From positions 1-43,669 of the forward strand of contig JAJQIL010000061.1 in assembly GCA_021199235.1 (NCBI GenBank): a DNA stretch of 43,669 bases. The letters run 5' to 3'. The notes under the pieces were generated by a model, which saw only the letters and a list, made by a program, of their open reading frames with translations, was not told the DNA's origin and did no database searches. Source of the stretch: Lachnospiraceae bacterium (GTDB taxonomy: Bacteria > Bacillota > Clostridia > Lachnospirales > Lachnospiraceae). The position numbers and the translations under genes were made by a program. Of the stretch, positions 12,771 through 32,887 are shown in pieces; the stretch's first letter is position 1; each line of letters starts with the position of its first letter.

Positions 12771-14178
12771 ATACAATTCCTCCCTTTGGCGTGTATTTTG
12801 GTATCCTATATTCGATCACCTTATCATCGAGCCACTTGATTCGCAATGTTCCGTCCAGCATGACCGTAATATTGCTGAGTGCGATTACTATGTCATTCTC
12901 GTCTGATTGCATTTCCCATATATCTCTTTTCTCAAGGTCACTCATCCAGTGCCGGATTGACTCTGTCTTAGATTTATCCGTAACTGAATTCACAGTATTG
13001 ACAACTCTCTGAACCACGCCTCTTTTGTATGCCTCTATCCTTGAGGCATCGTGAATAATGTAGTGGAGCAGCTTGTCATAGATTTTAGGCACATGACATT
13101 TTTCGCCTTTCCTGCAGGTGTTCTTGCATTGCCATTTCAAGTTATTATAGCTGGTGGAATGCCAGGGGCGAGGATGATACATCTCTCCACAGCCGCCGCA
13201 GATAACCTTGCTCGTCAACAGATGCAGCCCACTGTACCGTCCCGGAAAAGAAAGCCGCTCCTCCAGCTTTTCCTGCACATAATCAAAAAGCCACGGGGAG
13301 ATTATCGCCTCGTGGTCACCTTCAACATAATATTGCGGAACTTCGCCTTCGTTTTTCTTCGTTTTCTTCCTCAGATAGTCTATCGTGAAATCTTTCTGGA
13401 GCAGAGCATCGCCCTTGTATTTTTCATTGGAGAGCATACGGCGAATAGTCTGTTGATTCCAAACATCGCCACCTCCGGGAGCGGGTACACCTTCCTCGGT
13501 TAGAATGTTCGATATTGTGTGTGGAGTGTACCCCTGCAAGAACAGAAAAAATATCCGTCGAACCGTCACCGCTTGTTCTTCATTCACCACCATTGTATAT
13601 TTCTCAGGTCCCTTGTCATACCCAAGGAACCGACTGTAGGCAATACTCACTTTGCCATCCGCCATTCGCTTTCGTTGTCCCCATGTTATATTCTCCGATA
13701 TGGATCGACTCTCCTCCTGCGCCAGCGAAGACATGATTGTCAGTAGAAATTCACCCTTTGAATCTGTGGTGAAGATGTTCTCTTTCTCGAAATAAACACC
13801 AACGCCTTTTTCCTTCAGCATTCGGATAGTAGTCACTGTGTCTACCGTGTTTCTCGCAAATCTCGATATAGATTTGGTCAGCACCAAATCAATGCGTCCC
13901 GCAAGACAGTCCGCCACCAGCTTATTAAAACCATCCCTGTGCCTTGTACTTAAGCCTGAGATACCGTCATCCACATATATCTGGACAAACTCCCATCCCG
14001 GATGTTGCAGTATCTTTTTTCTATAATAATCCGTCTGTGCTGCAAGGCTTGTTTCCTGGTCTTCGCTGTCCGTAGATACCCTTGCGTATGCGGCAACCTT
14101 CATCTCGGCTTTTGCCGCTTCTTTGAAAGTTGCAGGTTTCGGAATGGCGGCCAGCTGCGTTACAATTCTATCTGCCAT
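12760..14178 (-). CDS. Large serine recombinase (TnpX/TndX-like)
   Basis: 472 residues. The catalytic resolvase domain carries the nucleophile Ser35 in YARVSTDSEDQ and the downstream motif LTKSISRFARN. The recombinase domain follows, with the zinc ribbon CGGCGEMYHP...CKNTCRKGEKC around 330-370, and a C-terminal coiled region. All hallmark residues are present, so it looks active. It would integrate and excise an element through a covalent serine-DNA bond between short cores. It is coupled by overlaps to the small gene before it (11 bases) and the zinc-ribbon gene after it. Which DNA it moves is unclear: the R-M operon to its left, the DISARM operon to its right, or both. Confidence 0.93.
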   Translation of the reverse strand: MADRIVTQLAAIPKPATFKEAAKAEMKVAAYARVSTDSEDQETSLAAQTDYYRKKILQHPGWEFVQIYVDDGISGLSTRHRDGFNKLVADCLAGRIDLVLTKSISRFARNTVDTVTTIRMLKEKGVGVYFEKENIFTTDSKGEFLLTIMSSLAQEESRSISENITWGQRKRMADGKVSIAYSRFLGYDKGPEKYTMVVNEEQAVTVRRIFFLFLQGYTPHTISNILTEEGVPAPGGGDVWNQQTIRRMLSNEKYKGDALLQKDFTIDYLRKKTKKNEGEVPQYYVEGDHEAIISPWLFDYVQEKLEERLSFPGRYSGLHLLTSKVICGGCGEMYHPRPWHSTSYNNLKWQCKNTCRKGEKCHVPKIYDKLLHYIIHDASRIEAYKRGVVQRVVNTVNSVTDKSKTESIRHWMSDLEKRDIWEMQSDENDIVIALSNITVMLDGTLRIKWLDDKVIEYRIPKYTPKGGIVYDD

Positions 14179-15130: not shown

Positions 15131-15212
15131 GGTTTAGCTGTCACAGGTGGCTAAGGGGTTCTCAATTGGCTAAACGGTGTTTAGCCAATTCCCTTTCATA
15201 GCAAGCTAAACC
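15131..15212. repeat. Nested TTTAGC inverted repeats at the drmC 3' end
   Basis: Inner dyad AATTGGCTAAAC (15164-15175), 3-base loop, GTTTAGCCAATT (15179-15190): twelve perfect pairs. It is enclosed by an outer 9-bp pair, GGTTTAGCT (15131-15139) and AGCTAAACC (15204-15212), the latter overlapping the drmC stop codon. Further GCTAA and CACTAAAC copies lie between and after. No long U-run follows, so a Rho-independent terminator is not the full explanation. Confidence 0.6.
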
Positions 15213-15865
15213 TCACTAAACACCTTTGAAAAAATCAGCCGTGTAAAGATATCATCTAATTGCTTTGCAATGCGATTCGATTCTATTAACGTACCCAATT
15301 CAATATTACCCTGCTGACCATGATATGATAAATTTGCAGAAGTAATAAGTGTTTTCTTCTGATCAATCGATATCACTTTGGCATGTAATGCAGCCATTTT
15401 ATCCTCTGTCTGATGATAGTTGTATATTTTCAGGAAATGTCCTTGATATCTCTTTAATTTGTCAAATTCAGACTGCTTGTCTATATCGTTTACAAAGAAT
15501 TTGACAAAAACACCGCATTGACTTTTCTGAATTATCACATCTGTAAGGTCAGCAAAATATGAGGACAAAGAATATCCCGTGATTAGTATACTTCTTTCTG
15601 CTTCATGTATCATCGACCGAACCACATTCATAGTTGTCCTTGCGTTAATGGCAAAAGATGGGGGCGCAGTTACTACAAGAGAAACTTTATCAGACTCATC
15701 TTTATCCATAGCACTTACTATAAGCTTAACGAGTTCATCACATTGCATTTCAGAAAGTTCGGGAAACTTGCTCCGAATCATCGGGACAGCATTTGCTGTG
15801 TCATTTGCAACATCCCCCTTGATAGTATTTAAGAGCAACTCCTGATTTATATTTCCACCTGGCAT
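15206..15865 (-). CDS. drmC: DrmC-like phospholipase D-family protein
   Basis: 219 residues. One PLD catalytic motif is clear: H161-A-K163-V-I-S-I-D168, followed by the matching SAN178LS and a Gly-Asn-Ile-Glu-Leu-Gly end. Only one HKD copy is present, as in DrmC and other nucleases of this superfamily, which pair two subunits to form the active site. The first 70 residues are helical with no known fold. It is the last gene of the seven-gene operon and overlaps drmB by 19 bases. In characterised DISARM, DrmC was found dispensable for most protection, so it may act as an accessory nuclease. Assignment rests on family plus the drmA-drmB-drmC order. Confidence 0.85.
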   Translation of the reverse strand: MPGGNINQELLLNTIKGDVANDTANAVPMIRSKFPELSEMQCDELVKLIVSAMDKDESDKVSLVVTAPPSFAINARTTMNVVRSMIHEAERSILITGYSLSSYFADLTDVIIQKSQCGVFVKFFVNDIDKQSEFDKLKRYQGHFLKIYNYHQTEDKMAALHAKVISIDQKKTLITSANLSYHGQQGNIELGTLIESNRIAKQLDDIFTRLIFSKVFSEV

Positions 15866-17595
15866 AATTCACCCACCAACTTTCTAAAGTACGAACATTC
15901 TTCTCGACCAAAAATTGGAACTACAAGTCCTCGGTCAAGCATTCTATTTCCATTCTCACAGGCAGTTTCTGAAATCATACAACAAGAGTGACAAGCTGCT
16001 CCGTTTGAATTTTTACCAGCTGGAAGATTGCTCATGCATTCTGGATCATTTGTGCAAACAAGAGCCTCTTGGAAAGCGTCTTTCATGAGATTAGTTATCT
16101 GTTCTATACTTCCAAGTTCCACCAAGCCTCCTAGAGAGCCTTCCTTGTCTGAACTACCTGTGTATAATAGTATACCAGACATTTTGTCACTGAAATAAAT
16201 TCTTTCTCTGATAGCTGATGAAGAATAGCCTGATGACAGAGACATCTGCTTTATCATTAAATGCGAAAAGGTATGCATTAGAACATAAACCGCGTCTCGC
16301 AACACAGTGACCTTCCATTTCTTTGATTCGCAGAATTCACGGTATGAATCAGCATATTTTTGTGAAAGAGCGTTTACTGCGTTAGAATTTAGCCAAGTCT
16401 CAAGAGTGGCTTTATTAAACTCTATAAATATTCCTTCCCCATTAACTTCAGCGGCAGGAAGCCAGCGTTCTTGCTTGCCCTTGCTCAAAGCGACAACATT
16501 AGGCTGCTCGTCTGCATCAGGATCTGGCGCATCTACCCTAGTAAATCCAAGAAGAACTCGAACTTCTCTAAGTCTGGTTACACGGATTATTCTACTAAAG
16601 TACTTTTGCAGATATCTTGGCAGTGTATCTTCCTCGGTCTTAAAATGCTTTTTGTTTGACGCATAAGCAGGATCGTTATGATGTATAATAGCATTATATT
16701 CCATCTGCTTTATTTCAGTAAATTCTTTGATATTGCGCATGCGGCGTTCAAGCGCTTCATCAAATTCACTTCTTGTATATGCGGAGAAGTACATCTCATA
16801 CGTTTTTGTTATGCCTTCATCACCCATCAATTTCTTTGCAAATTCTATATCGCGCAAATGTTCATCAATCAGATTATACAATGGATTAATCCATGGAGGG
16901 ATTGAAATCGCACTTCTGCTTACAGCAAAATAGACATTCGAAGCACCTCGTTGTGACGGTATAACAGGTTTATTGCAACGCTGATTTTTAACATTAGGTC
17001 GGAACGGGTGGTGCCCGGAACATGTCAGTCCTTCAAAATTTTCTCGTTGAGTTGCTCCGTTCATGCTGCGCTTAGCTCCACAAGAACATTCAACCCACAT
17101 ATCCGCTAGAGTAGAAGTATTGCCGATGGAGTACATTTTTAACTTACCATTGCAATCAGAGTCGCCTCTGTGTACCCACCATCTCCACGGAAAGTCTGAC
17201 ATATGCCCATCTTCACAAATTGTAATAAAACGTGAGGGATAGGCAGAGCGATGACACTCTGGGCAAGTAACACCATATTTGAGATACTTATCAAGGTCAA
17301 AGTTTTTCCTCGCATCAAAGAGCCTGTTGCATTTCAAATTAGAGCACACATGCCAATATGGAAAGGTCACAACGGGTACATCCCCTGAAAAACTCGTGCG
17401 AGGCATATAAAAACAATCGACACCCAAGTATGAAGCAAGTCGGCCATCAATTATTTTTTGACCCTTCTGTTTCCAGTACGATATATCAAGGATTGTCACA
17501 GAATCCTTTACCGCATCCACAACAGAACCTGGGCCAAAGGTGGTTATAATTTGATTGGGGCGCAATTCCCCTAATTTATTATTATCAAAAGCCAT
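15847..17595 (-). CDS. drmB: DISARM DrmB protein (DUF1998 family)
   Basis: The start at 17595 is chosen because GGAGGA lies 7 bases before it, overlapping the end of drmA; the frame opens further upstream but would overlap drmA by about 95 bases. This gives 582 residues. Cysteines at 84, 89, 111, 114 and 127 with CEDGH suggest one or two zinc sites in the N-terminal half. The C-terminal DUF1998 segment contains LMHTFSHLMIKQMSLSSGYS and GILLYTGSSDKEGSLGGL, and ends with a CxSCC cluster. DrmB acts with the helicase DrmA as the core DISARM complex that loads on phage DNA ends. One base separates it from drmA. Strong call. Confidence 0.92.
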   Translation of the reverse strand: MAFDNNKLGELRPNQIITTFGPGSVVDAVKDSVTILDISYWKQKGQKIIDGRLASYLGVDCFYMPRTSFSGDVPVVTFPYWHVCSNLKCNRLFDARKNFDLDKYLKYGVTCPECHRSAYPSRFITICEDGHMSDFPWRWWVHRGDSDCNGKLKMYSIGNTSTLADMWVECSCGAKRSMNGATQRENFEGLTCSGHHPFRPNVKNQRCNKPVIPSQRGASNVYFAVSRSAISIPPWINPLYNLIDEHLRDIEFAKKLMGDEGITKTYEMYFSAYTRSEFDEALERRMRNIKEFTEIKQMEYNAIIHHNDPAYASNKKHFKTEEDTLPRYLQKYFSRIIRVTRLREVRVLLGFTRVDAPDPDADEQPNVVALSKGKQERWLPAAEVNGEGIFIEFNKATLETWLNSNAVNALSQKYADSYREFCESKKWKVTVLRDAVYVLMHTFSHLMIKQMSLSSGYSSSAIRERIYFSDKMSGILLYTGSSDKEGSLGGLVELGSIEQITNLMKDAFQEALVCTNDPECMSNLPAGKNSNGAACHSCCMISETACENGNRMLDRGLVVPIFGREECSYFRKLVGELCQVEI

Positions 17596-17596
17596 G

Positions 17597-20500
17597 TTAT
17601 TCCTCCGTGTAATAAAACATATTCGCAGAGCTTTCAACCTCACGCATAGAACGTAATGTTGCTTTTTCGTTTTCATCATGCGGCTGCTCATATGGGTTCA
17701 TCAATCTGTTGTAGTGTTCGGTACCCACAACATAATAGCGAAGCGGCTTAGACTGAGAAGCCTGTAATTTCCACCAATCAATGAACCTGTCAATTTCTTC
17801 CTCCGCATCAGCCCTTGCGGAAGGTTTAATGATGTTTAGACGGTCTATTATCAGACTTTTCACAGAATCGAGCTGTTCTTTCGTCAAGGAGCCTATTGCC
17901 GCCGCATCGGGATTATTTGCCATATGTGGGAATTTAAGTCTTATGGCTGAAATTATCAATGCATGCATAACGCGGTCCCTCGCTCGCGCGGAGAACGGAG
18001 TTGCAGTTGTTCCCTCAACAAATCTGTATAGCTGTGAGTGATATCCGGTAAAATTCTCGTAATGCGATAAGTCGCGCGGACGGTACGCATTATATAATGT
18101 GACAACCAAGCCAGGGAAAGCACGTCCAATACGGCTTGTTGCCTGTATGTATTCCGAGTTCTGTTTTGGCTGACCAGTTACAACCATAAGGCCAAGACGA
18201 TCAACATCCATGCCCACGGCAATCATGTTTGTAGCGATAGCAGTATCTAGACATTCTTTTGAATCACAGGTTGTCTCAAGTTGATTCAGCTTCTCTGGAA
18301 TCTTGTATGAGGACATTCTGGATGTAATTTCCACATTATGATTAAGATACCGCTCTTTCTCCATGTCATATTTTTTCTTGATGAAATGAATTCTTCTACG
18401 AATATCATCTTGTAAAAGTCTAACCGCACCTCCAAGTTCTCGGATACTGTTAAAGTATCCGACTAAAGTATAATATGGGTCGATCACGTCGCTATATTCA
18501 TCCTTAAGCGAATATGCCGATTGAAGAATAATAGCATAAACTCGGAGCAATGCAGTTTTTACAGACTGTCCCGGAGCGCATATACCTACATATTTTCGGA
18601 ACGGGTCACTGTCCACTGGTATCTCCCTTATAAAGAAACTGTCGCCTATCTCAAAACCGTTCGGTGGAAATTGCGTCGTGTTTTTTCTAGCGTATAGGCA
18701 CTTTGTCTGCGCCTCTGCATTCTTGATTGTTGCTGTTGAAACCACGTATTTAGGTTTAATACCATCATGAATGCACATATTCTCAATTATAGTTTCGTAT
18801 GCACCATATACTGTTCCAAGCGGTCCCGTGATAAGATGAAGCTCATCTTGAATAATCAACTCTGGAGGAAGGAATGGTCTTATGTCGCTGATTGTTGATG
18901 CCGGTAATGAATCGGTTTTTTTGTGATGCGCATGCTCCGCTCCAATTGCTACATATCCGTCCCGGCTACATACTCTGTCAACTCTTCCAAAGAGGGCATT
19001 AGTATTTACATCCCAAGGAAGACGCGCAAATTTATCCACTGTCGATAAGATTATGGTTGGACACTTGGAGTATATCTCTTCATCAACAAGGTAGACCGGA
19101 ATTGGTATTCTATCATTCCTATATCTATAAAATTGACAATCACGGTCAGAACAGTATATTTCGATAGACTTTCTATCTGTGTCAATGTTGAAATTCTCTT
19201 CTTTAAGCGGTTTCCCACAAAATGGGCATGTAAGAAGCTGTTTATACACATGGTTTTTTGCGCTCCTTGCAGCGTACGGATTATCCGGTTTCTCAATAAA
19301 TTCTTCGAATTTGTTTGGTGTTACACCGCCTCCAACCCAGAAACCTATGCTGATAGGCTCTGTTCCAAATTTCGGATAGGCCTGCCTTCTAATCATTTCA
19401 GCCGCCAGAACCATCTTTGTAATACGGTCTCTTTGTTGCGTAGTAAGTAAACGAAGAGTGTAGCGAAGCATAACCGTTACACCTCCATCAGAATTGTACT
19501 CTCCATCATCCGTTGCTCTAAGTCTTCTATTTGCAATTACGAAAGCCATGAGACCAAGATATGCTTCCGTCTTACCTCCGCCTGTAGGGAAGTACAGCAA
19601 ATCAACAACTTCACGGTCCTTGTGGCGCGGATCGACTATTCCTGCAAGGTTCATAAGAATAAAGGCAATCTGAAAAGGTCGCCAACCGAAGTTGTTATTA
19701 GGATTCTTAGGGTTAATGAAGTCTTGAAAACTGCACTCGATCTCTGAGCCGTGCTTCTTTGCATAGCCTTTGATACTATTCTGCAAAAAGATAACACGAT
19801 TCATAAAACAGAATGCTTCAAACGAGGTATCATCCGTTTCAATGATATGGATTCCTTCTCGAATACGGTTCAATGCATCCTTACAACGCTCAATGACTTT
19901 ATTTCCGATTTTCTCCTTAAAGTCCTCATTACTCATCTTGGCGTTACCGAGCAAAGTTTTGTTTATCCAACTCTCGTAAGAATCTGCAAGAGTATTAAGC
20001 TTTCCTATAGTTTCTTCTTTTTTTGACTTTACCGACATGGTAAATGTGGAGAAGAAATGCTTATCAAAGCCGTCGAGAGCGGCACTGACACCAGGAAATT
20101 CATATTCAGGTATGAATGACGATTTCACACAAGTAGTTCTTCCGTTAACTGGTTCATCCCAAACTGCAGCGCATCCACGACCTCGTCCCATAATAGGACG
20201 TTGCTCGAAGTAGAATTCATCTGCAGCAAGAATTTCCCTGCAGATATGTTCAGCTACAAACACAGCAGAGCCATTCTCCGCATAAGCTTTGATTTCCACT
20301 TGAAACATAATTGCTTCTGCGCTGTTTTCCGGATACTTTCTCTTGTTAATGACATACGCAGTAACAAGAGAATATCCGCCCTTTAAGATAATTCGAGACA
20401 CATGAACATGGACGTTAGAATCACAAACAAGCTGAAAATCCTTTGTGCGGTTAAAATCGCTAAAAATGACATGAATCGTTTCTTTCATGGGATGGCGCGT

Positions 20501-20914
20501 GTAAATTGCACGATTGTGTTCCTTCTCATCTTTACCCATATATTTTTGGGAAGACTTTACATAATCTCCCCAAGATACATCCAGATTGATGCTTTCCGTA
20601 TCAGCTTGAACGTAGAAGCTGATACCAACAGAAGAGGGCAGTTGGAAACGAGTAGCAGAAATAGGCTCGTTGTCATCATCCTCACCAGCCGTAAAATCTT
20701 CACCATCTTCAAAAGCCATGTCCGCATCAACTTCCTGTTCACTGGCACAGGAATTGTCCTCATTATCATTTTGAATGTCAAGCATTCCCACAAGGTAGGC
20801 ATAGCGCGGATTTTCCTCTAGAACCTCTTCTTTGTCTCTTGGACCAATGAGGTCAGTTCTTATGGCATCAATTATTTTTTGCCTTACCTCTGCATATTTA
20901 AATCTATCAGCCAT
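17597..20914 (-). CDS. drmA: DISARM helicase DrmA
   Basis: The ATG at 20914 overlaps the stop of the preceding gene as TAATG, with GGAGGA just before it; this gives 1105 residues. An acidic stretch (about 58-83) is followed by a long N-terminal domain. The motor starts late: Walker A PTGGGKT at 443-449, then a probable zinc site (CPFCGKP...CSDRDC), STVDKFA, the box QDELH in place of DEAH, VSTATIK (motif III) and QATSRIGRAFPG (motif VI). This domain order is characteristic of DrmA, the DNA-binding motor of DISARM; the same helicase type is found in Druantia-like systems. It is one base from drmB, and expected to act with it on foreign DNA. Confidence 0.93.
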   Translation of the reverse strand: MADRFKYAEVRQKIIDAIRTDLIGPRDKEEVLEENPRYAYLVGMLDIQNDNEDNSCASEQEVDADMAFEDGEDFTAGEDDDNEPISATRFQLPSSVGISFYVQADTESINLDVSWGDYVKSSQKYMGKDEKEHNRAIYTRHPMKETIHVIFSDFNRTKDFQLVCDSNVHVHVSRIILKGGYSLVTAYVINKRKYPENSAEAIMFQVEIKAYAENGSAVFVAEHICREILAADEFYFEQRPIMGRGRGCAAVWDEPVNGRTTCVKSSFIPEYEFPGVSAALDGFDKHFFSTFTMSVKSKKEETIGKLNTLADSYESWINKTLLGNAKMSNEDFKEKIGNKVIERCKDALNRIREGIHIIETDDTSFEAFCFMNRVIFLQNSIKGYAKKHGSEIECSFQDFINPKNPNNNFGWRPFQIAFILMNLAGIVDPRHKDREVVDLLYFPTGGGKTEAYLGLMAFVIANRRLRATDDGEYNSDGGVTVMLRYTLRLLTTQQRDRITKMVLAAEMIRRQAYPKFGTEPISIGFWVGGGVTPNKFEEFIEKPDNPYAARSAKNHVYKQLLTCPFCGKPLKEENFNIDTDRKSIEIYCSDRDCQFYRYRNDRIPIPVYLVDEEIYSKCPTIILSTVDKFARLPWDVNTNALFGRVDRVCSRDGYVAIGAEHAHHKKTDSLPASTISDIRPFLPPELIIQDELHLITGPLGTVYGAYETIIENMCIHDGIKPKYVVSTATIKNAEAQTKCLYARKNTTQFPPNGFEIGDSFFIREIPVDSDPFRKYVGICAPGQSVKTALLRVYAIILQSAYSLKDEYSDVIDPYYTLVGYFNSIRELGGAVRLLQDDIRRRIHFIKKKYDMEKERYLNHNVEITSRMSSYKIPEKLNQLETTCDSKECLDTAIATNMIAVGMDVDRLGLMVVTGQPKQNSEYIQATSRIGRAFPGLVVTLYNAYRPRDLSHYENFTGYHSQLYRFVEGTTATPFSARARDRVMHALIISAIRLKFPHMANNPDAAAIGSLTKEQLDSVKSLIIDRLNIIKPSARADAEEEIDRFIDWWKLQASQSKPLRYYVVGTEHYNRLMNPYEQPHDENEKATLRSMREVESSANMFYYTEE

Positions 20915-23565
20915 TATTTTTCTTCCTCCACGATATGTGCTGTTCCAAGAGTGTATTTGCAAGTATTCCCCAGATGTATATTATCATCAGAAATGAGTTT
21001 GTATTCCCACGTCTTATTGTCTGGGTCTGCTGTTGAAGCAAATTTACACCATTTTATTCCTTCTCTTGCTTTCAGTATTACATCTTCCGAGGTCACTTCA
21101 TTCAAAGCCTTTACTTCAACCATGAATTTCCCATCATTTGTTTCCACCAAAAAATCCGGATTGTACTGTTGGCCAGCTTTCCAAAACAAACCCAGCTGGT
21201 TCAGTGGTGGTTTAATCCAACGAATAACATCTGCATCTTCCTCTAAAATGATAGAAAAGATACGTTCTGTATCACTGTCAAAAGCGTTTGCTGGATAGTA
21301 TGACTTTTTGTACCCAGTAAAGAGATATTTTTTTATATTACTCTTATCATAGAATGGCTTATCAAATTTTACTTTACCATCCTCCTTGACATTTCTCGTA
21401 AACTTGCGAAACAGAATAAGATCCTTCTGTACAATATGGATATCATGAGTCTCTTTATCCATATGCTCATATATCTGCTTCCTAATATCATTTACAATCA
21501 ATGAGGCGTATCGGCGAACAATCCGCCTTTTATCTTCCTCATTGCCTGGTAATTGCTCAAGATATTGTTCCACTACATCGATAACAAAATCTGCATCGTT
21601 ATACGACAACTCGCTAATTGAATCAAGGAGCATACATGCTAACGTATTCATGGCATCGTTGACTTCAAGAATTTGTGCATCCACAACCGATAGTAACTGT
21701 TGATTAACAGCATCAAACCGTTCAATTTTAGCCATGGCAACCTCGAAATCCGCAATGGTACGCTTCACCTTAAAGCGATTAAAGTGTACCTCGGATGTTG
21801 TTTGCACAAGTATTTTAGGAACCGAAATGGCTTTTCTTGAATATTCTGTTACCACCTTAGTAAAGTCATCCTTGCTCAGTGGCTGTTTTTTTCCTTTTTC
21901 GAGTATCTGAGGAGCTTCTGGTGTTGCTGTTGAAGAAGCAGCAGTAGGACTATCGCCCATTATATCAGGCTGAATATCAAACAAAGACAGCTGAGTTGTA
22001 TCCTCAACCTTTTTTGTTCGCTGTGAGGCCATGAAGTTCTTCATATATTCCTGATAGATTTCTAACCTTGTTTTCGGATTACTTACCTCAATAAATGATT
22101 TTACACCAGATGCTGTAATTGCAAAATCGATTAGTGTAAGCTGTCCATCATCTTCGACTACACTTGAGACTCCAACAGTTTCTGTGTTTTCAACGGTTGC
22201 CTTGTCAAGATCACGATAGCGGAAGATATCACTGCTCTTAATTTCGTCAACAAGTTCTCTGTAGTGGTCATGTGCAACGATATCAAGTGAATCTAGGTCT
22301 TCGTTGCCTGTCTGCTCACCAAATGGAAGCCTTAGGCCTCGTCCAATAGTCTGCATGGCAAGAATATCGCTTTTGGCAGCATTAAGCGGAATAATCGTAT
22401 ATAAATTGTTTACGTCCCAGCCTTCTTTTAATTTGTATACATGCAAAACGATTTCTATAGGATTCGAAGCGTTTTCTATCGAAAGCAGGAGCCGAATATT
22501 TTCCTCAGACTCCTCGCCAGTCTGCTTTGAATGAATCTCTATAACTCTGCCCATATACTTTCCATTCTGAAAATTATCATTGTCAATCAAAGCACGAATT
22601 CTCTTGGCATGGTCAGTATCCTTGCATGCAATCAAAACAATCGGTTTTACATAATCTTGATTATGTTCGCTGCAATATTCCCTTAATATTGCTTTGCGAT
22701 GTTCATGCAAAGTAAGACCATCGCGAATTTTCATCTCCTCAATATCATCTTGATTATACCCAGCCATGTTGGAGCGTCCCATCACAACAGGTATTTTCAA
22801 GAAGCCCTCAACCGCTCCACGAGCCAAGTCGTAGGAATATATTACATTTGAGCTTACTTTTGGCGTAGCTGTAAATTCCAATCCGAGAATTGGCTTTAAA
22901 TAATTGATGGCGTTCATAGATGCTGGTGCATAATATCTATGTGCTTCATCCATACAAACAACAAGATCATCAAATTGCGCCAATACATCGGCAAAAGAAG
23001 CTCCTAACGTTTCCTTGAATCTATGAAAATTAAACTGTGTATCCTTTTTACTGTTAAAAATCTTCCCTATATTGAAAATGAAAAGCTGGATCTCAGATGT
23101 CTTTTCTATTTCGAGAGACATTTGTTCATACTTTACAGGGTATGTATCATAGTTCTCACCATCATACACTTTGGGTCGCCCCATTTCTGCTTCCAATCCT
23201 TTAAATATATACTTTGGGTGGCTTGGATTAGATTCTTTACGCAGCTTGTCATAGATGGTGTTTCCTGGTGCAAGTATGAAAAAGTGCTTGTATCCCTTGG
23301 TTTTGTAGAGATAATAAATGCAAGCACCCATAAGCCTAGTTTTACCTATGCCAGTTGCCATGGCGTAGCAAAAAGACGGGAAAGCAAATTTTGTTTTCAC
23401 ATCATGGTTATGTTCACAATATTCTGAGGCAGTTTTCTCCACAGTTTCCTTAGTATCCCGTTTATAATCACAATGTGAACTGATAGCATCGAGGCAGGAG
23501 AGCGCTTCTCCCTGTGGAGTTCTCAAACTCATCGCGTATTTAATTTTACTCACAACATCTGACAT
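20914..23565 (-). CDS. Type III-like restriction (Res) subunit inside the DISARM operon
   Basis: 883 residues. The helicase has Walker A in MATGIGKTRLMG (about 69-80), DEAHR at 206-210 and LEFTATPK at 229-236, with QTIGRGLRLPFG as motif VI. The C-terminus carries an intact PD-(D/E)xK nuclease: PD at 803-804, then VEVK with Glu817 and Lys819. This is the layout of type III Res subunits, which cut after ATP-dependent communication between two unmethylated sites. It abuts the Mod-like gene upstream and overlaps drmA by one base. A Res-like nuclease between the methylase and drmA is not part of the DISARM core as I know it, so this may add real cleavage to the system. Confidence 0.87.
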   Translation of the reverse strand: MSDVVSKIKYAMSLRTPQGEALSCLDAISSHCDYKRDTKETVEKTASEYCEHNHDVKTKFAFPSFCYAMATGIGKTRLMGACIYYLYKTKGYKHFFILAPGNTIYDKLRKESNPSHPKYIFKGLEAEMGRPKVYDGENYDTYPVKYEQMSLEIEKTSEIQLFIFNIGKIFNSKKDTQFNFHRFKETLGASFADVLAQFDDLVVCMDEAHRYYAPASMNAINYLKPILGLEFTATPKVSSNVIYSYDLARGAVEGFLKIPVVMGRSNMAGYNQDDIEEMKIRDGLTLHEHRKAILREYCSEHNQDYVKPIVLIACKDTDHAKRIRALIDNDNFQNGKYMGRVIEIHSKQTGEESEENIRLLLSIENASNPIEIVLHVYKLKEGWDVNNLYTIIPLNAAKSDILAMQTIGRGLRLPFGEQTGNEDLDSLDIVAHDHYRELVDEIKSSDIFRYRDLDKATVENTETVGVSSVVEDDGQLTLIDFAITASGVKSFIEVSNPKTRLEIYQEYMKNFMASQRTKKVEDTTQLSLFDIQPDIMGDSPTAASSTATPEAPQILEKGKKQPLSKDDFTKVVTEYSRKAISVPKILVQTTSEVHFNRFKVKRTIADFEVAMAKIERFDAVNQQLLSVVDAQILEVNDAMNTLACMLLDSISELSYNDADFVIDVVEQYLEQLPGNEEDKRRIVRRYASLIVNDIRKQIYEHMDKETHDIHIVQKDLILFRKFTRNVKEDGKVKFDKPFYDKSNIKKYLFTGYKKSYYPANAFDSDTERIFSIILEEDADVIRWIKPPLNQLGLFWKAGQQYNPDFLVETNDGKFMVEVKALNEVTSEDVILKAREGIKWCKFASTADPDNKTWEYKLISDDNIHLGNTCKYTLGTAHIVEEEK

Positions 23566-25083
23566 CTATCTGACCTCACTTTCAAATACACATTTCTCCA
23601 GAAGATCTTTCGGTATTTTCTTTATGTCAATATTATCCGGCAATATCATATCCGACTGAATCTTCGTCCCGTAAACAAGGAGAGACTGACCTTCAGCAAG
23701 TCGCATGGACAGTGATTTTATGTATTCCGCATTAATAAACTCCATTGTAATATGAATAAAGCGTTTTTCTGACGAATATCCATGAAAACATTCCTGTGGT
23801 TTGTAATGGAAACCCTCTATCTTACAGATTGCTTCACATATCATCTCAAATGTATATTCAGGGTTTATCTGATAAATTGGCAGTTTGTCATTTTTCACAA
23901 GTAGGCTAGGTGCTAATTCATAAAAATGATAACCGCCACCTCCTTGCCACGAATATTTCTCAGTAACACCAATACGGTCTACGCCATCAACAATTCTATC
24001 CATCCTTCTTTTGCACTGGTCATAAGCCTGTTCTCCTAACTCTATTCCAATCCATTTACGTTTCATTTTATGTGCAACAGCAACTGTGGTTCCCGAGCCC
24101 AAAAAGGAGTCAAGAATTAAATCCCCTTCATTTGTAGCAATGCTTAAAATACGTTCGACCAGTTTCTCTGGTTTGGGTGTGGCAAATGGATTATCTGGAT
24201 TAACATCTTTGACTTCTTTTTTTGCGTCTTGAGTAGATCCAACATCATCATATTTCCAAATAGTCATTGGAACACTACCACCTTTTACTTCGCTCAAAAA
24301 TGTTTTTTTTCGAGGAACGTTATTACCTTTAGCTCCAAACCATATTCTATTATCCTCAACCAACCGTTCAAATTCATCTTTTGTCGATATCCAACTTCGA
24401 CTCTTAGTAGGTGTTACAATTCTGCCACTAGGAGTTTTAATCGGATAATCCGTAGTAGCGCTATAAGTCCGAGCGGTAAAATCGCTCGATGTCCATGGGC
24501 CTCTGGGATCATTATCAGGATTTTTATACCTGTCGTCCATTTCTTGCGTACGAGGAAGTAAGTTCGGTTTCCATACTTCTTTATTTTTAGCATAAACCAA
24601 TATAAAATCATGTGAATCAGATAACCATCTTGCATCATTTTGAGGAGAAAATTTTTTTTCCCATATCACATTAGCAACAAAATTCTGTCTCATGAATATT
24701 TCATCACATAAGACCTTCAAATATGCCTGCTCGTCATCATCAATACTTATCCAAATGGTTCCATCTTCCGACAAAAGGTCCTTTAATAATTTAAGACGAT
24801 TTCGCATAAGGCTAAGCCAAATGCTATGTTCTAAATTATCATCATACTGTTCAAATGCTGCGCCTGTGTTATATGGCGGGTCGATATATATACATTTAAT
24901 TCGTCCTGCAAAATCCTGCTGCAATGCTTGTAACGCAATAAGATTATCGCCATGAATTAACATATTTTCACTTGACGCATCTCCATAAGATTTACTCGTA
25001 TCCTCTATTAAAATACGCGGTTCTACAACCTTATCATCATATTTCCCAACCCAAGTTAATTCCAATCTGCCTGCCTTCTGCAT
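23566..25083 (-). CDS. Type III-like N6-adenine methyltransferase (Mod / DrmMI-like)
   Basis: 505 residues. The catalytic motif DPPYNTG at 68-74 comes before the AdoMet motif DSFLGSGTT at 325-333, the order of beta-class adenine methyltransferases such as type III Mod. Between them (about 140-320) is a variable region that should be the target-recognition domain. It directly abuts the Res-like gene, as mod and res do in type III systems. It also occupies the place of the adenine methylase after drmD in class 1 DISARM, so it may serve both. Expected role: marking host DNA at an asymmetric site. A little shorter than many Mod proteins, with no broken motif. Confidence 0.87.
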   Translation of the reverse strand: MQKAGRLELTWVGKYDDKVVEPRILIEDTSKSYGDASSENMLIHGDNLIALQALQQDFAGRIKCIYIDPPYNTGAAFEQYDDNLEHSIWLSLMRNRLKLLKDLLSEDGTIWISIDDDEQAYLKVLCDEIFMRQNFVANVIWEKKFSPQNDARWLSDSHDFILVYAKNKEVWKPNLLPRTQEMDDRYKNPDNDPRGPWTSSDFTARTYSATTDYPIKTPSGRIVTPTKSRSWISTKDEFERLVEDNRIWFGAKGNNVPRKKTFLSEVKGGSVPMTIWKYDDVGSTQDAKKEVKDVNPDNPFATPKPEKLVERILSIATNEGDLILDSFLGSGTTVAVAHKMKRKWIGIELGEQAYDQCKRRMDRIVDGVDRIGVTEKYSWQGGGGYHFYELAPSLLVKNDKLPIYQINPEYTFEMICEAICKIEGFHYKPQECFHGYSSEKRFIHITMEFINAEYIKSLSMRLAEGQSLLVYGTKIQSDMILPDNIDIKKIPKDLLEKCVFESEVR

Positions 25084-25094
25084 CGTGACTCCTC

Positions 25095-27713
25095 CTAAAA
25101 TTTCAGAACAATATTGACCTTCAATACAGGATCAATATTAAACTGAGCATCAAATTCAGCAATTTCCTTTTCTCCGTCAGCCTTGAACTTACTACCTTTC
25201 TCATGAAAAGAGGCTTGGCATTTTTCAAGAGCTTTTGATTTCTCTGATATCTTTTTTCTTATATCCATCTTTTCATAAAAATTGTCTGATTCCTTTTCCT
25301 GCTCCTTCAACACATCAATTTCAGCATTCATTTCCTGATAGCTTACCACCAGCTGCTCCATCTGTATACGTTCCCAGTTTTCGACTTTTTTTCTGTTATA
25401 AGCTTTGATATGCTCTGATTGCTGCTGATACTGTTTATTCATTTCAGCAATCAGATTATCATAAATGCTTTGATATGACTCCATTTCAATATCCGTCGGG
25501 GTAAAATAATGAACATCCATATCGTCAATTCTCTCTAACGCGGGCACAAGTTCCGACTCTTTAAAATCTATATAATCACCATTCTCATCGCATAGTAACA
25601 GCACCGGAAACAAAAACTGTGCGGAATTACAAAATGCTCCAATGAAAAGTGTGCCGTGTGAGCCAAGGACATTTTCACCCCAATTATCAATTCTCCAATA
25701 ATATAAGCCCCCATCTAACTCTGGCTTGGCAAAGTTATTCCAGTATTCTACATCGCGAAGGTATTGGTCAATTTCCCGTTTGGTTGCATCGAGAGATTGT
25801 TCCTTAGCACCGTTACTTTCCATCAAAAGAAGGTTTCTGAGTTCCCTCGCTTTCTTGTCCTTTTTTGCGTTTAGGCGCCGATCCAGTTTATCAAATGCCT
25901 GCTTAAATTGAGCAGTTGTATCGCAGGTCTGATAAATATCAAGCACCATTTTTTCAAAACTTGTGCCTGACTCCAATGCGCCAAGAGCAATATCCGATGC
26001 CCCAAATACACCTTCGAAAAGCTCGAACTTCTTTGACAGAATCTCATAAACGCGTTGGTCTGCGGCGTTTTGCGTGTTAAGCAGATTAATTGCGACAACA
26101 TCATTTTTCTGCCCATAACGATGGCATCTGCCAATTCGCTGTTCAATTTTCATTGGGTTCCATGGCAGATCGTAGTTTATAACAGTGTTACAAAACTGTA
26201 GATTTAAGCCTTCAGAGCCAGCATCTGTACAGATCAGTATTTTCGCATTGTCACGAAAATAATCCACAATTGCATGTTTATATTCCACACTGCGACCGTA
26301 GTTTGTTGACCCAAAGTTTTTGACCTGCCAAGCCTTATATATTTCCTTTGACATGGTATCGTCAAAATCTCCATTGAAAAGAATTATGTCTTCTTCATTG
26401 TATCCTGTTCTTCTTAATTCCGCGGCTATGTATTTTTGAGTGCGTTTTGATTCTGTAAATATAACAACCTTTTCTGCAATGCCTCGGTCATTCTGGTATT
26501 CAAAAGCAATCTTAATGGCCGATTCTAACGCAGCAATTTTGGCATTTGTCTTTATTCGACCAGCAACCTCGATTATGGTATTTACTTCATCTAATTCTTC
26601 CTGTATAAACTGCTTCTGTATAATTGTATCTTCGTCATCCGTCTCATCAAACTCTGACTCGTCAATTTCATCTTCTACAAAGCTCCAAAACAAATCAAAG
26701 CCTTCCTGTGCGTTTGATGACTTCGTACCTTCGTATAGTTTTTCTAGCCTGTTCTTCAAAACCTCAAAGGTTTCAATTACAGCAAAGCTAGAAGAGGCGA
26801 GCAGTTTTCTAATTACGAGAATAATCAAAGCGCGATTTGAAGTGGGTATTGAATACAGCAATTCTCGTTTCAGAAAATCATTTACTCGTTGATATAGTTC
26901 AATTTCATCCGGGGAAAGAGTAAAGTCAACCGTCTTACAAACTCTTTTTTTGAAATTCATATATTTCGCTACATCCTTACGAAGTGTGCGATAAAGAACT
27001 GGGGAAAGTTCTGCTTTTAAATCGGCATAATTTTTGTTTTCAATGTACCGCTCGTTAAAAACTTTTTCACTCCCAAAAATACGTGGGTCAATAAACGAAA
27101 TCAAACCGTGTAAATCAGTCAAAGAATTTTGCAGCGGTGTAGCAGTCAAAAGTATCTTGGGAATTCCTTTTGAAAGCTCATAAAGATTTTTCGCCCGTTT
27201 GGTTCCGTGAAAAACATTTCGGAGATTATGCGCCTCATCTATAATTATAAAATCCCACTTTACATCAGGAAATCGTCTCATGAGCTTGGATGAATAATCA
27301 TACGATGTTATCACAATTCTCGTTTTTCTGTTATCTGTGAGTCTTGTGTGCCACATATAGCTTTCTTTTTCCACAGTAAGTCTGTCAAGTATGACAGCTT
27401 CTAGCCCAAACTTATCCTCTAATTCTATTTCCCATTGCTTTCTTAAAGAGGCTGGCAAGGCAATCAATATACGCTTTGCTCCGGTTTCAAGAACATATTT
27501 CAAAACAAGTCCTGCTTCGATGGTCTTCCCAAGGCCAACTTCATCGGCTAAGACAATTCCACCTGTTTTCAGCGATTCAATGGCAGCACAAAAAGCATTG
27601 ATTTGATGGGGGTTCAATTCAATGTTTGCATCCAAAAGGAAATGAAACGGCGACGCTTCAAGCTCCATTTTTTTATATCTGCTATATTGCTCAAGTAGCA
27701 GGTTACTTTCCAT
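25095..27713 (-). CDS. drmD: SNF2-family helicase, DrmD-like
   Basis: 872 residues. The SNF2 motor has Walker A DEVGLGKT at 57-64, DEAH at 159-162, LLTATPLQNS, and the C-terminal lobe CTDAGSEGLNLQFC...PMKIEQRIGRCHRYGQ. A long coiled, charged C-terminus follows (from about 770: QQQSEHIKAYNRKKVENWERIQ). The motor begins almost at the N-terminus. SNF2 helicases of this type (DrmD) define class 1 DISARM together with an adenine methylase, which is exactly the next gene. It overlaps the C5-methyltransferase gene by 11 bases and lies 11 bases before the Mod-like gene. The family is certain; the DrmD label comes from context. Confidence 0.82.
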   Translation of the reverse strand: MESNLLLEQYSRYKKMELEASPFHFLLDANIELNPHQINAFCAAIESLKTGGIVLADEVGLGKTIEAGLVLKYVLETGAKRILIALPASLRKQWEIELEDKFGLEAVILDRLTVEKESYMWHTRLTDNRKTRIVITSYDYSSKLMRRFPDVKWDFIIIDEAHNLRNVFHGTKRAKNLYELSKGIPKILLTATPLQNSLTDLHGLISFIDPRIFGSEKVFNERYIENKNYADLKAELSPVLYRTLRKDVAKYMNFKKRVCKTVDFTLSPDEIELYQRVNDFLKRELLYSIPTSNRALIILVIRKLLASSSFAVIETFEVLKNRLEKLYEGTKSSNAQEGFDLFWSFVEDEIDESEFDETDDEDTIIQKQFIQEELDEVNTIIEVAGRIKTNAKIAALESAIKIAFEYQNDRGIAEKVVIFTESKRTQKYIAAELRRTGYNEEDIILFNGDFDDTMSKEIYKAWQVKNFGSTNYGRSVEYKHAIVDYFRDNAKILICTDAGSEGLNLQFCNTVINYDLPWNPMKIEQRIGRCHRYGQKNDVVAINLLNTQNAADQRVYEILSKKFELFEGVFGASDIALGALESGTSFEKMVLDIYQTCDTTAQFKQAFDKLDRRLNAKKDKKARELRNLLLMESNGAKEQSLDATKREIDQYLRDVEYWNNFAKPELDGGLYYWRIDNWGENVLGSHGTLFIGAFCNSAQFLFPVLLLCDENGDYIDFKESELVPALERIDDMDVHYFTPTDIEMESYQSIYDNLIAEMNKQYQQQSEHIKAYNRKKVENWERIQMEQLVVSYQEMNAEIDVLKEQEKESDNFYEKMDIRKKISEKSKALEKCQASFHEKGSKFKADGEKEIAEFDAQFNIDPVLKVNIVLKF

Positions 27714-28989
27714 CAGTTTCTCCTTTACGTAGCTGCCCTAAAATACCCACTGCTATTCCTTTTGCCATCATTGGAGGTACTGCGTTCCCAATCTGAACAA
27801 ATTGCGATGTGCGTGGTCCCTCAAAGAAATAGCTATCAGGGAATGATTGTATTCTTGCGGCTTCCCTGACAGTAATAGATCGATGTTGCTCAATATCTGG
27901 ATGAATAAAGTAATGTCCATCTTTTGAAAGATGTGCCAAAATAGTGTGACAACATGCTTCATCTCCCTCAACAACCTTAAATCTGTCTGTGAACGAATGT
28001 CTGTTTTTGTGCGTTTTTAGTTCCTCAGGCAAATCGTTGTAGTTCAAACGCTTATGTCCATCACTCCATAATTGAATAGCCCTCTTATAAATTTTAATAT
28101 CACGGTCTATATTGGGGCGGCTTTTATGTGACGTTAATACATCATCCGGCGTCCGTATCTCATATTTCACAACATAATCACTTGCCGTTTCTGTGGCATA
28201 TTTATCTTGGCTTTCACCAGGATGTAGTTTGGGCAAATCAAGAAAAAGGTCATTTACCACAGCACCTGTCTTTATTTCCTTAAACTCAGGATAACTCAAA
28301 CCGCTATTCTTCAGCCAACCCACAATAATCATTCTTCGTCTGTTTTGCAGAACTCCAAATTTGTGCGCATTTTGTTCTTTACATTCGATCTCATAACCTA
28401 CACGTTTTAAGTATTTTTGAATATTCTTCCAAGTAGTTCCACCATTAGCAGATTCTATTCCGGTCACGTTCTCAAAGACAAACATACGCGGTTGATATCT
28501 TTTTAAAAACCTTGCATACAACCTATACAAATAGTTGCGCGGGTCTTCAGCCATAGGAACTTCCATATGGCTACTTTGTGCTCTTCCTACAAGAGAGTAT
28601 GCTTGACAAGGCGGACCCCCAACAATAACATCTATATTTGCAATCCCCTTGATTTTCATAATACCATCTATAGTCTTAAAGATGCTCGGCAACGATTCGT
28701 CCGACATAGTCTCGTTGATTATAGTCTTAATTATTGATGCAGGAATGTGCTTTAAAAATTCATCACGAGTAATTTCACCCAACATATATTTTTTGTATAT
28801 GTCCAGACGGTTTATACCCTTCAAATAATAATAGGCATTTCTTGTCTCAAGGGTTTTTGCTGCAAACTCGTTCATTTCCACATGCGCCACTGGCTTAAAA
28901 CCTGCTTGTAGGAAACCTTCTGATAAGCCGCCTGCCCCAGCAAATAAATCGATAAAATTATAACTACGTTGTTCGTTATCGGTTGGCAT
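27703..28989 (-). CDS. DNA C5-cytosine methyltransferase (Dcm / DrmMII-like)
   Basis: Starting at the ATG at 28989 (GAGGAA 7 bases before it; upstream ATGs at 29025 and 29079 have no site) gives 428 residues. Motif I DLFAGAGGLS is at 14-23, the catalytic GGPPCQ at 124-129, FENVTG at 172-177, QNRRR (motif VIII) further on, and QIGNAVPP near the C-terminus (motif X). All are intact. About 60 extra residues lie between motifs II and IV (around 55-115). C5 methylases (DrmMII) mark class 2 DISARM, whereas drmD and an adenine methylase mark class 1; here all three share one operon. It is the first gene of the operon, overlapping drmD by 11 bases. Confidence 0.9.
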   Translation of the reverse strand: MPTDNEQRSYNFIDLFAGAGGLSEGFLQAGFKPVAHVEMNEFAAKTLETRNAYYYLKGINRLDIYKKYMLGEITRDEFLKHIPASIIKTIINETMSDESLPSIFKTIDGIMKIKGIANIDVIVGGPPCQAYSLVGRAQSSHMEVPMAEDPRNYLYRLYARFLKRYQPRMFVFENVTGIESANGGTTWKNIQKYLKRVGYEIECKEQNAHKFGVLQNRRRMIIVGWLKNSGLSYPEFKEIKTGAVVNDLFLDLPKLHPGESQDKYATETASDYVVKYEIRTPDDVLTSHKSRPNIDRDIKIYKRAIQLWSDGHKRLNYNDLPEELKTHKNRHSFTDRFKVVEGDEACCHTILAHLSKDGHYFIHPDIEQHRSITVREAARIQSFPDSYFFEGPRTSQFVQIGNAVPPMMAKGIAVGILGQLRKGETDGK

Positions 28990-29090: not shown

Positions 29091-30071
29091 CTATCCCAGC
29101 ACATCCTCTAACCGTGCCCGATATTCCTTAACCACCTCATCCGGCGAAATCACCCGCATTCTTTTTCCAAACTGGAACAGCCAGCCCCAGAAGGTCGGTG
29201 ATATCTGCACCTTTACGGTGGCGATGTTTCGCTCCTCGACGGAAGTCATCATATTCACGTTCTCGCCGAAACGGTCATAGACAACGCCCGTCAAATCCTT
29301 TTCAAATTCGAGAGCGATGGTCTTTTGCTCACCGCCGTACATTTTAAACGCCTGCTCTGTATATTCGGCAACGCCACCGCGAAGCTCTAAGGCTTTTTCC
29401 GAGATATCCTCGTCCGTGGCCTCCACGGAGTCCATGCGGTCAACACGGTAGTTGGCCGTGGCATCATGCTTGTCGCTGTATGCGATGAGATAGTAGTTGT
29501 CCTCGTTATATACAAGCGATACCGGTTCCACCTCGTAATGGTGTCCATCCTTGCGGTAAACCTTCTCGCGGTTTATGTCTATGTCAAAGTAACGGAAGAT
29601 GACCTTTTTCTGGCGCTGCATGGCGTCCTCCAAGGCACCTACGTTGTAATAGATATGCTCGTTGCTGTGCTTGCGCGTATTGAAGCACACCAGATTTCCT
29701 TTTATGATTTCCGCGCTGTGGGTGCCGCCGAGGTTTGCCAGTTTATCTATCAGTTCGCTGGATTTCTTTTCGGTGATGAAGCTTGCGGCCTGCACGGCAT
29801 CTATCAGTATCTTAAGCTCCGGGGTGGAGAAGCTCCGTTCTGCCACATAGTAGCCCTTCTTTTTGCCCACCCAGGTCTCAAGGATTTCTATTCCCAGTTC
29901 ATTTAAGATGTCCACATCCCGGCTCACGACTCTGCGGTCGCAGGGGATATCGCATTTTTCCATGTAATCGCAGATTTGCACGGTTGTCAAAGGGTGCTGC
30001 TCATCGGATTCCTGCCGCAGCAGTTCCAGGAGTTTTACCAGTTTTATTTTCTGCCAGTTTTTCTGTGCCAT
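29091..30071 (-). CDS. WYL-domain HTH transcriptional regulator
   Basis: I place the start at the ATG at 30071 (GGAGG 6 bases upstream), giving 326 residues; the frame opens further up but through its own promoter. The N-terminus has a winged helix (TTVQICDYMEKCDIPCDRRVVSRDVDILNELG, about 33-70). The middle holds the WYL fold, with VEPVSLVYNEDNYYLIAY, and a C-terminal WCX-like domain with a GWLFQFG segment. WYL regulators sense nucleic acid or nucleotide ligands and often sit beside defence operons, repressing them until phage attack. It is read in the same direction as the DISARM-like operon, 101 bases ahead. Base composition is closer to the prophage than to the operon. Confidence 0.88.
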   Translation of the reverse strand: MAQKNWQKIKLVKLLELLRQESDEQHPLTTVQICDYMEKCDIPCDRRVVSRDVDILNELGIEILETWVGKKKGYYVAERSFSTPELKILIDAVQAASFITEKKSSELIDKLANLGGTHSAEIIKGNLVCFNTRKHSNEHIYYNVGALEDAMQRQKKVIFRYFDIDINREKVYRKDGHHYEVEPVSLVYNEDNYYLIAYSDKHDATANYRVDRMDSVEATDEDISEKALELRGGVAEYTEQAFKMYGGEQKTIALEFEKDLTGVVYDRFGENVNMMTSVEERNIATVKVQISPTFWGWLFQFGKRMRVISPDEVVKEYRARLEDVLG

Positions 30072-30134
30072 GCCTTGCCTCCGATTATTTGGTTTATTTG
30101 GTTTTCCTGCGCCTGAATATAAAAAATCAGTTTC

Positions 30135-30163
30135 TATTATAATGCAAGCCGTTTCAAAATTCA
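30135..30163 (-). promoter_or_regulatory. Sigma-A promoter of the WYL gene, possibly of the whole DISARM operon
   Basis: On the minus strand TTGAAT (30163-30158) and TATAAT (30140-30135) are 17 bases apart. It lies about 65 bases before the WYL start. As no good promoter is seen between WYL and the next gene, it may drive all eight genes. Confidence 0.75.
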
Positions 30164-30226
30164 ACGTTTTGTTGTCCTGAATTTGTGACTTCTGCATTTT
30201 TCGAGAAAAAAGTTGCGATTTTTCTA

Positions 30227-30255: not shown

Positions 30256-30264
30256 GCTCTCACA

Positions 30265-30280: not shown

Positions 30281-30314
30281 AGTATGTGATACGACACAAA
30301 AAAGGAGGACCATT

Positions 30315-32877: not shown

Positions 32878-32887
32878 GGAGGACGCA

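Follow-up and report, generated by a model that had tools for sequence, protein, structure and literature searches.

Which defence system is encoded by seven closely spaced minus-strand genes of a Lachnospiraceae bacterium (contig JAJQIL010000061.1, assembly GCA_021199235.1), where a type III restriction-modification (R-M) pair lies within what otherwise resembles a DISARM operon? The window analysed here is the entire stretch of 43,669 nucleotides; the operon occupies positions 15206-28989. Taking the lines of evidence together, we consider it fairly probable that this is a DISARM variant in which a type III triad (SNF2 helicase, Mod and Res) replaces DrmD-DrmMI between a DrmMII-type C5-cytosine methylase and DrmABC, that it is carried in an apparent prophage, and that it would act by the mechanism proposed below. 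The genes, in the order of transcription, are:

27703..28989, minus strand: C5-cytosine DNA methyltransferase, DrmMII type (best PADLOC model DrmMII, 558.9 bits; Pfam PF00145, 198.1)
25095..27713, minus strand: SNF2/RapA-like helicase, 'DISARM_DrmD_b' (NF038318, 1502.4 bits)
23566..25083, minus strand: type III Mod, beta-class amino-methyltransferase (best PADLOC model MTase_III, 552.8 bits; Pfam N6_N4_Mtase, 177.4)
20914..23565, minus strand: type III Res, helicase with C-terminal PD-(D/E)xK motif (best PADLOC model REase_III, 401.2 bits; Pfam ResIII, 73.6)
17597..20914, minus strand: DrmA helicase, short form (NF038325, 1279.7 bits)
15847..17595, minus strand: DrmB, MZB/DUF1998 protein (NF038324, 594 bits)
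15206..15865, minus strand: DrmC, PLD-family nuclease (best PADLOC model DrmC, 322.4 bits; Pfam PLDc_2, 56.9)

Composition of the operon

Gene calls and family profile matches confirmed the seven genes, their common strand, order and coordinates as given in the initial annotation. The distances between neighbours, in bases, are -11 (C5/DrmD), +11 (DrmD/Mod), 0 (Mod/Res), -1 (Res/DrmA), +1 (DrmA/DrmB) and -19 (DrmB/DrmC), with the starts of DrmA and DrmB set at ATG 20914 and ATG 17595, respectively, as chosen from relatives and ribosome-binding sites. The G+C content of the operon is 0.39, versus 0.48 in the remainder of the contig.

In a hidden Markov model search, DrmA and DrmB both scored above the NCBI cut-offs for their families (1279.7 versus 950 bits and 594 versus 240 bits), and they match the Serratia structure 7s9v at 587.7 and 314.7 bits, respectively. 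The SNF2 protein matches the whole of the NF038318 model (cut-off 950), and DrmC scores 117.6 bits against NCBI DrmC_I, under the cut-off of 133. DrmMI is absent among the 25 best of the 61 PADLOC model matches listed for Mod, and a search for DrmE, already reported as missing, found nothing in the genome of the window at E<=1e-20. Both hallmarks of type III R-M are present, namely, a beta-class Mod with a central target-recognition domain (TRD) and a Res that combines a superfamily 2 (SF2) helicase with a PD-(D/E)xK motif.

All catalytic motifs are intact in the window, in agreement with the initial annotation, and they are largely kept in the relatives that were aligned. Among the aligned operon proteins, the C5 motifs FAGAG, PC and ENV are each present in 31/31 (window included); the Mod motif is DPPY in 21/25 and DPPF in 4/25; Res contains GIGKT (26/26), DEAH (25/26) and a C-terminal ExK in the form EVK (23/26); GKT and DEAH occur in 30/30 DrmD-like proteins, and GGGKT and DELH in 28/28 DrmA proteins. 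The HxK-x4-D motif of DrmC is present in the window protein, the only one inspected. DrmA also keeps SMREVES, with the equivalent of Serratia V1296. Relatives of Mod with solved structures include 6k0w and the EcoP15I Mod (4zcf), and one of the top three is a Mod named adenine-specific. The product of Mod is likely N6-methyladenine (m6A), with N4-methylcytosine (m4C) possible: some type III Mods encoded behind a helicase of this kind make m4C, and Eco86II, a type III R-M system with an extra helicase, makes it at GAGCC (PMC8259958). Phase variation through repeats was considered and rejected, given that there are merely two short arrays, one in the SNF2 gene (25398-25430) and none in mod.

Ancestry of the parts and relation to known systems

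The initial annotation regarded the operon as a chimera in which markers of DISARM classes 1 and 2 coexist. The C5 methylase is of the DrmMII type, but the SNF2 gene had been misread as a class 1 marker. The gene is filed as DrmD by both NCBI and PADLOC; yet its product is 38-45% identical to the helicases of SNF2-Mod-Res operons versus 23-27% to the DrmD proteins of five class 1 operons. In our careful tree, helicases of the seven-gene operons and of the triads form one clade (support 100/99), and the approximately unbiased (AU) test rejected a topology constrained to unite the helicases of the seven-gene operons with class 1 DrmD (p-AU 0.00026). This tree was built with L067, L015, six long-branch helicases and most near-identical operon rows left out (L numbers denote the loci compared); one of the six removed sequences, from L125, where it adjoins DrmB, had grouped with class 1 DrmD on a very long branch in an earlier tree. 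The triads of the trees include L069, whose SNF2 gene is opposite in strand to mod and res. The helicase of the SNF2-Mod-Res locus of Escherichia coli NCTC86, which we take to be Eco86II, falls among the triads and is 42% identical to the SNF2 protein of the window. In phylogenetic terms, the SNF2 protein of the operon belongs with type III-associated helicases, its sister being the helicase encoded in free-standing SNF2-Mod-Res operons. The helicase tree contradicts a chimera of classes 1 and 2 recognized by shared markers.

Loci with SNF2 helicases of the same kind in Salmonella (L117, 7545-17560) and E. coli (L177, 8814-11895) begin with a short helix-turn-helix (HTH) gene; the one in E. 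coli is annotated as mads1, and no mod or res follows it within the stretch shown.

The Res proteins of the operons form one clade (support 100) within a set that includes 11 triad Res proteins (96), apart from the NCTC86 Res and two outside Res proteins; the inner order of this tree is not resolved, and it carries a long-branch warning. Triads with a short Mod have Res homologues of near full length. Two DrmE loci were compared for C5: L146 encodes a protein with 66% identity to that of the window, and L145 only a 25% identical one, on the opposite strand. A type III pair suspected upstream of L146 from gene lengths turned out to be a GajB-like helicase and a type IV-like enzyme. DrmA and DrmB fall into their own supported clades outside classes 1 and 2, with DrmB on the class 2 side of the split from class 1, in trees where class 2 is represented by two rows only and several branches are long. 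Given the ancestry of the helicase and Res, and the gene orders of class 1 operons, the predicted type III triad occupies the position that DrmD-DrmMI have in class 1.

How do these relationships compare with the systems already described? Class 1 DISARM (drmD-drmMI-drmA-drmB-drmC) shares with the window operon the DrmA, DrmB and DrmC families and the order SNF2, methylase, DrmA, DrmB; the window operon differs in having Mod-Res and no PglX/MmeI-like DrmMI, and in that its SNF2, DrmA and DrmB proteins lie outside the class 1 clades. With class 2 (drmMII-drmE-drmA-drmB), the likeness consists in the C5 protein, by its identity to that of L146, and the position of DrmB; the window operon has SNF2 and Mod-Res but no DrmE, and DrmA is just 34-37% identical. 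The DISARM of Serratia sp. (7s9v/7s9w) has homologous DrmA and DrmB, with the V1296 motif kept, and its operon contains both C5 and N6 methylases, but no Mod-Res is reported in the available part of the source (PMC9142583). Type III R-M systems with an extra helicase (Eco86II, BspHIV; PMC8259958) have the same SNF2-Mod-Res order as the window operon. Operons of the Eco86II type differ in the lack of DrmABC and C5 genes, and the NCTC86 Mod, of about 1,040 aa, is 24% identical to the 505-aa Mod of the window. In Cutibacterium acnes DSM 16379, a 32.5-kb island with type III R-M splits and disrupts drmMI of a DISARM locus (PMC7365801); that locus is an interruption, whereas the window operon contains a conserved in-operon pair. 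Archaeal DISARM systems are also borne by proviruses, but these are class 2 with DrmE, and no type III triad is mentioned in the available text (PMC11705971).

PADLOC requires DrmMI for type I, and DrmE and DrmMII for type II (PMC9252829); without DrmMI and DrmE, the window operon fits neither type. The components are thus already catalogued (NF038318, PADLOC), whereas the arrangement fits no catalogued type. We found no description naming it as a subtype in a literature search that did not cover Ofir 2018; it is not mentioned in the available portions of PMC12458937 and PMC12839542, nor described in those of papers on Pseudolactococcus, Pseudoclostridium, Antarctic soils and Erwinia. Of the earlier proposal of an undescribed subtype with dual marking, the first half holds to the extent that no description was found, but dual marking by m6A and 5-methylcytosine (m5C) is not new, since the Serratia operon already has both methylases (PMC9142583).

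Conservation of the operon and exchange of the Mod target domain

A scan at the species level, with a single genome for each species and the 80 best of 467 matches retained, yielded 30 loci with a close SNF2 relative (L039-L068; 44-88% identity over the best segment) in Clostridia, Erysipelotrichia, Treponema and other Spirochaetia, Gallicola and Bifidobacterium. One additional locus, L131, missed by the scan, brings the relatives to 31; these loci are not a census. After exclusion of three loci whose contigs end before the junction (L054, L058, L068), 28 relatives with a visible junction remained, and in 25 of them Mod-Res separates the SNF2 gene from drmA. Among these 25, reading frames are broken in two (mod and res in L044, the SNF2 gene in L067) and additional genes are inserted in two (L060, L061); L131 keeps the placement though its proteins are just 39-61% identical. 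The exceptions are L057 (Res remnant only), L062 and L066. An insertion of the pair in this one genome alone, a possibility raised by the initial annotation, is ruled out by these counts; together with the family matches, they bear out that a type III pair is inserted in a DISARM-like operon, and the recurrent order agrees with the short gaps (-19 to +11) in indicating one unit, in which all joints had been said to overlap or lie within 11 bases.

The operon is patchily distributed, as would be a mobile cassette: it is present in 2 of 35 other genomes of the window's own genus, and 2 of 398 genomes in a phylum sample, the window's genome among them, pass the DrmD_b cut-off. The DNA of the IMG/VR phage contig L295 is 86.4% identical to that of Bifidobacterium thermophilum L053 over 13,950 bases, from 34 bases before the C5 frame to the ends of both stretches. 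E. coli genomes gave no near match. On plasmids, all matches to DrmD, DrmA, Res and DrmB are below 60% identity, and Mod matches of 60-80% occur in 3 of 874 records; the phage collection yielded a single 4.5-kb faecal record with a partial DrmA (56%). Some loci are not independent: L051 and L063 come from near-identical strains, L054, L294 and L295 represent one phage, and L170/L171 duplicate L040/L043. In L051 and L063, both from Ruminococcus flavefaciens, the operon has immediately upstream of it a second DISARM-like cluster (L051 1-8444, L063 2-8442), which encodes an HSP70/actin-like protein, a UvrD-like helicase, DrmA (35%) and DrmB (31%), with families scanned in L051 only.

Four loci lack the internal pair: L057, L062 (R. 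albus), L066 and the viral contig L301. Two of them, L062 and L301, have an unrelated type III Mod-Res pair in front of C5, 21 bases before the C5 frame in the former and overlapping it in the latter. All four retain an SNF2 gene of 871-889 residues that adjoins DrmA, which argues that the helicase would also serve DrmABC, with the proviso that the outside pair could be what it serves in L062 and L301.

Within the operon, the genes appear to have been inherited together, with one part excepted. Across 15 loci selected for closeness, mean pairwise identity is 0.84-0.88 for C5, SNF2, Res, DrmA and DrmB, 0.74 for DrmC (14 loci) and 0.60 for Mod (14 loci). Both ends of Mod show mostly 0.77-0.90 agreement with the window protein, with a drop to 0.13-0.18 at residues 176-275; the central TRD, at about residues 125-325, is hypervariable. 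For 23 of the 31 loci (L044, L054, L057, L058, L061, L062, L066 and L067 omitted, as was drmC), pairwise identities of the six genes, including the C5 target region, correlate with Spearman coefficients of 0.75-0.96, and those of the Mod TRD with every other part at -0.14 to 0.03. Thus, six genes co-diverge and the Mod TRD does not, a result that is new. The TRD can even be more alike than its flanks, as between the window and L137 (67 versus 56%), L132 (65 versus 56%) and L138 (48 versus 32%), all three being operons without DrmABC in the stretches read, and between L042 and L049 (97 versus 85%); the reverse holds, for instance, for the window and L039 (25 versus 77%). We read these patterns as a swapping of Mod TRDs within a pool on which free-standing type III systems also draw. 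Co-evolution of a Res patch (residues 505-575) with the Mod TRD was tested and rejected (Spearman -0.08; 1567/2000 permutations as high).

Phage setting, proposed mechanism and alternatives

The following features flank the operon:

12366..12776, minus strand: HTH_38 protein, gene overlapping the recombinase gene (Pfam HTH_38, 20.4 bits, below the cut-off of 27)
12760..14178, minus strand: large serine recombinase of the phage-integrase type (PHROG 95 integrase, 424.9 bits; Pfam Resolvase/Recombinase)
29091..30197, minus strand: WYL/WCX-domain transcription regulator (Pfam WYL, 51.8 bits; WCX, 27.7)
30264..30920, plus strand: S24 repressor-like protein (Pfam Peptidase_S24, 99.5; PHROG 4 transcriptional repressor, 97.2)
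31381..43010, plus strand: phage early region with sigma-like, Gam-like, Sak4, helicase, primase, RusA, S-adenosylmethionine (SAM)-synthetase-like and ParB-methyltransferase genes (Pfam, PHROGs)

From 30264 onwards, the repressor gene and early genes face the operon head to head; one of them encodes a primase matching PHROG 2597 at 983.8 bits. The serine integrase (12760-14178) is on the far side of the operon. This neighbourhood looks like that of an operon carried within a prophage, between the integrase and the repressor/early genes. The same head-to-head arrangement, with the full set of seven genes, occurs in the IMG/VR contig L295 (SNF2 72%, primase 81-84%) and, for the parts covered, in its near-copy L294 as well as in L039 and L054. 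This phage setting is likewise new; neither it nor the exchange of the Mod TRD figured in the initial annotation. Related phages encode terminase (L186, L203) and portal (L203), and the pair of HTH_38 and recombinase genes recurs in IMG/VR L260-L263; viral labels in IMG/VR are predictions. Between the early genes and C5, the window has the WYL gene, and L039 has genes for an ABC-3C C-terminal domain protein and a DUF2326 protein, with genes of like length in L295. Thirty related IMG/VR stretches include 4.5 kb or more ahead of the early genes; two of them, both from the same phage, contain the system. DrmA patterns matched no viral contig, and the DrmD and C5 scans did, so that the DrmA scan missed some.

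Three other related phages were checked before the early genes: L188 has ABC-3C and Eco57I-like genes (54-5357), L182 has HsdM (1-3579) and L203 an AAA_13 protein (204-2705). Defence-type genes also precede the early genes in L039 (5463-8435), and in L185 a phage-type integrase is on the far side of the cargo. The place before the early genes is likely a cargo hotspot for varied defence-type genes in this phage family.

The WYL gene is on the same strand as the operon, 101 bases upstream of the C5 start, and is probably the first gene of the operon transcript in the window. It is facultative among relatives, being found 5' of C5 in two of 30 distinct ones (L042, L060), with upstream sequence short for some.

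Other observations concern the surroundings. A weak match to the N-terminal domain of SAM synthetase (40967-41749; 44 bits; PHROG 1569, unknown function) lies directly before the ParB-methyltransferase fusion (41751-43010), and relatives of the two proteins adjoin in IMG/VR L205. Beyond the serine integrase, positions 4276-11996 encode a type I R-M system (HsdR, HsdS, HsdM) and a YgjP-like metallopeptidase, so that the contig holds two R-M-type defence sets. IMG/VR L304 (6660-17714) is a class 2-like DISARM by layout, with C5 (58%) followed by genes of 684, 853 and 581 aa and DrmA (33%).

Under the mechanism that we propose, Mod and the C5 methylase would mark resident DNA, and Mod-Res would cut incoming DNA at unmodified targets selected by the Mod domain. 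The SNF2 motor would connect this cutting to DrmAB, which would load on the resulting or on natural DNA ends, sense base methylation through the residue equivalent to V1296, proposed as the methylation-sensing residue of Serratia DrmA (PMC9142583), and unwind; DrmC, or a host nuclease, would assist degradation. A swap of the Mod domain would re-target the first step, leaving the others untouched, and in a lysogen the operon would exclude competing phages. A more specific version, in which SNF2 couples type III cutting to the sequence-independent DrmAB in a two-tier, re-targetable immunity and temperate phages carry the ~14-kb set against rivals, is put forward tentatively, as a possibility that we would not yet call probable.

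Several findings weigh against the preferred interpretation. The TRD is closer than the flanks in just 4 of 34 Mod comparisons with the window, the other 30 showing the opposite, and the variable Res patch (505-575) fails to track it. The outside pairs of L062 and L301 are related (Res 68%) and may stem from one event; the pair of L057 has decayed to a Res remnant with the rest persisting, so that DISARM can be kept without it; and L066 shows no pair, on a short contig. Phage genes are present in the fetched flanks of only 2 of 30 distinct relatives (L039, L054), for which reason a phage would be one vehicle among several for the operon; the window contig ends at 43669, and carriage is read from the gene neighbourhood. 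Type III cuts leave 2-nt overhangs. Serratia DrmAB binds poorly in vitro to 5' overhangs shorter than 7 nt (PMC9142583), so that an unwinding step would be needed between cutting and loading. Eco86II can methylate without its extra helicase, and the active enzyme yielded no peptides of that protein (PMC8259958), so that a physical link among Mod, Res and SNF2 is only hypothetical.

Could the operon instead comprise two independent defence systems, a DISARM (C5, DrmABC, perhaps SNF2) and an ordinary type III pair, on one transcript for joint transfer and regulation? We regard this as rather unlikely. The loss of the internal pair from L057, L062, L066 and L301 with the rest persisting, the existence of free-standing SNF2-Mod-Res operons without DrmABC, and the restriction of DNA by Eco86II (PMC8259958) all fit such independence, but the pair occupies one fixed site in 25/28 loci over deep divergence, L062 and L301 are again joined to a different type III pair, and the Mod flanks and Res co-diverge with DrmA and DrmB. 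That SNF2 serves Mod-Res only, as in triads, leaving a DrmABC core without DrmD function, would accord with its nearest relatives being triad helicases rather than DrmD; its retention by DrmA in the four loci without the internal pair (in L062 and L301 it could serve the outside one) and its position in the gene order, the same as that of DrmD in class 1 operons, make this improbable.

We find it similarly hard to credit an ordinary class 1 DISARM with a replaced methylase gene and nothing mechanistically new: the filing of the helicase as DrmD by NCBI and PADLOC, the known occurrence of DISARM with two methylases and the class 1 order DrmD-methylase-DrmA-DrmB(-DrmC) all speak for it, but common ancestry with class 1 DrmD was rejected, DrmA and DrmB are outside the class 1 clade, and the methylase is accompanied by a predicted cutting enzyme. 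Finally, the operon might be located beside the prophage, in a defence island at its integration site, as would befit the type I R-M system beyond the integrase and the 28 of 30 distinct relatives without phage genes in the fetched flanks. We deem this unlikely, given the shared head-to-head arrangement of the window, L039 and a single phage from IMG/VR (L295, L294, L054), the occupation of the same place by other defence-type genes in related phages, and the phage-type integrase on the far side of the operon in the window and of the cargo in L185.

These results bear on DISARM and type III systems in several ways. 'DrmD' in current databases spans helicases of different origin, so that class calls based on DrmD can mislead. 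The extra helicase gene adjoins mod in more than 500 genomes, and its role there, reported as unknown (PMC8259958), becomes a question tied to DISARM, where deletion tests are straightforward; if the two-tier reading is true, more than 500 type III systems would gain a role for their orphan helicase. It has been remarked that large size could be the reason why prophages lack Dnd, BREX and DISARM (PMC9090908). A DISARM set of 13.8 kb that adjoins phage early genes is at odds with this remark, although archaeal provirus cases are reported (PMC11705971). Free exchange of TRDs in an otherwise co-inherited operon predicts strains that would differ in the Mod mark while sharing the C5 mark.

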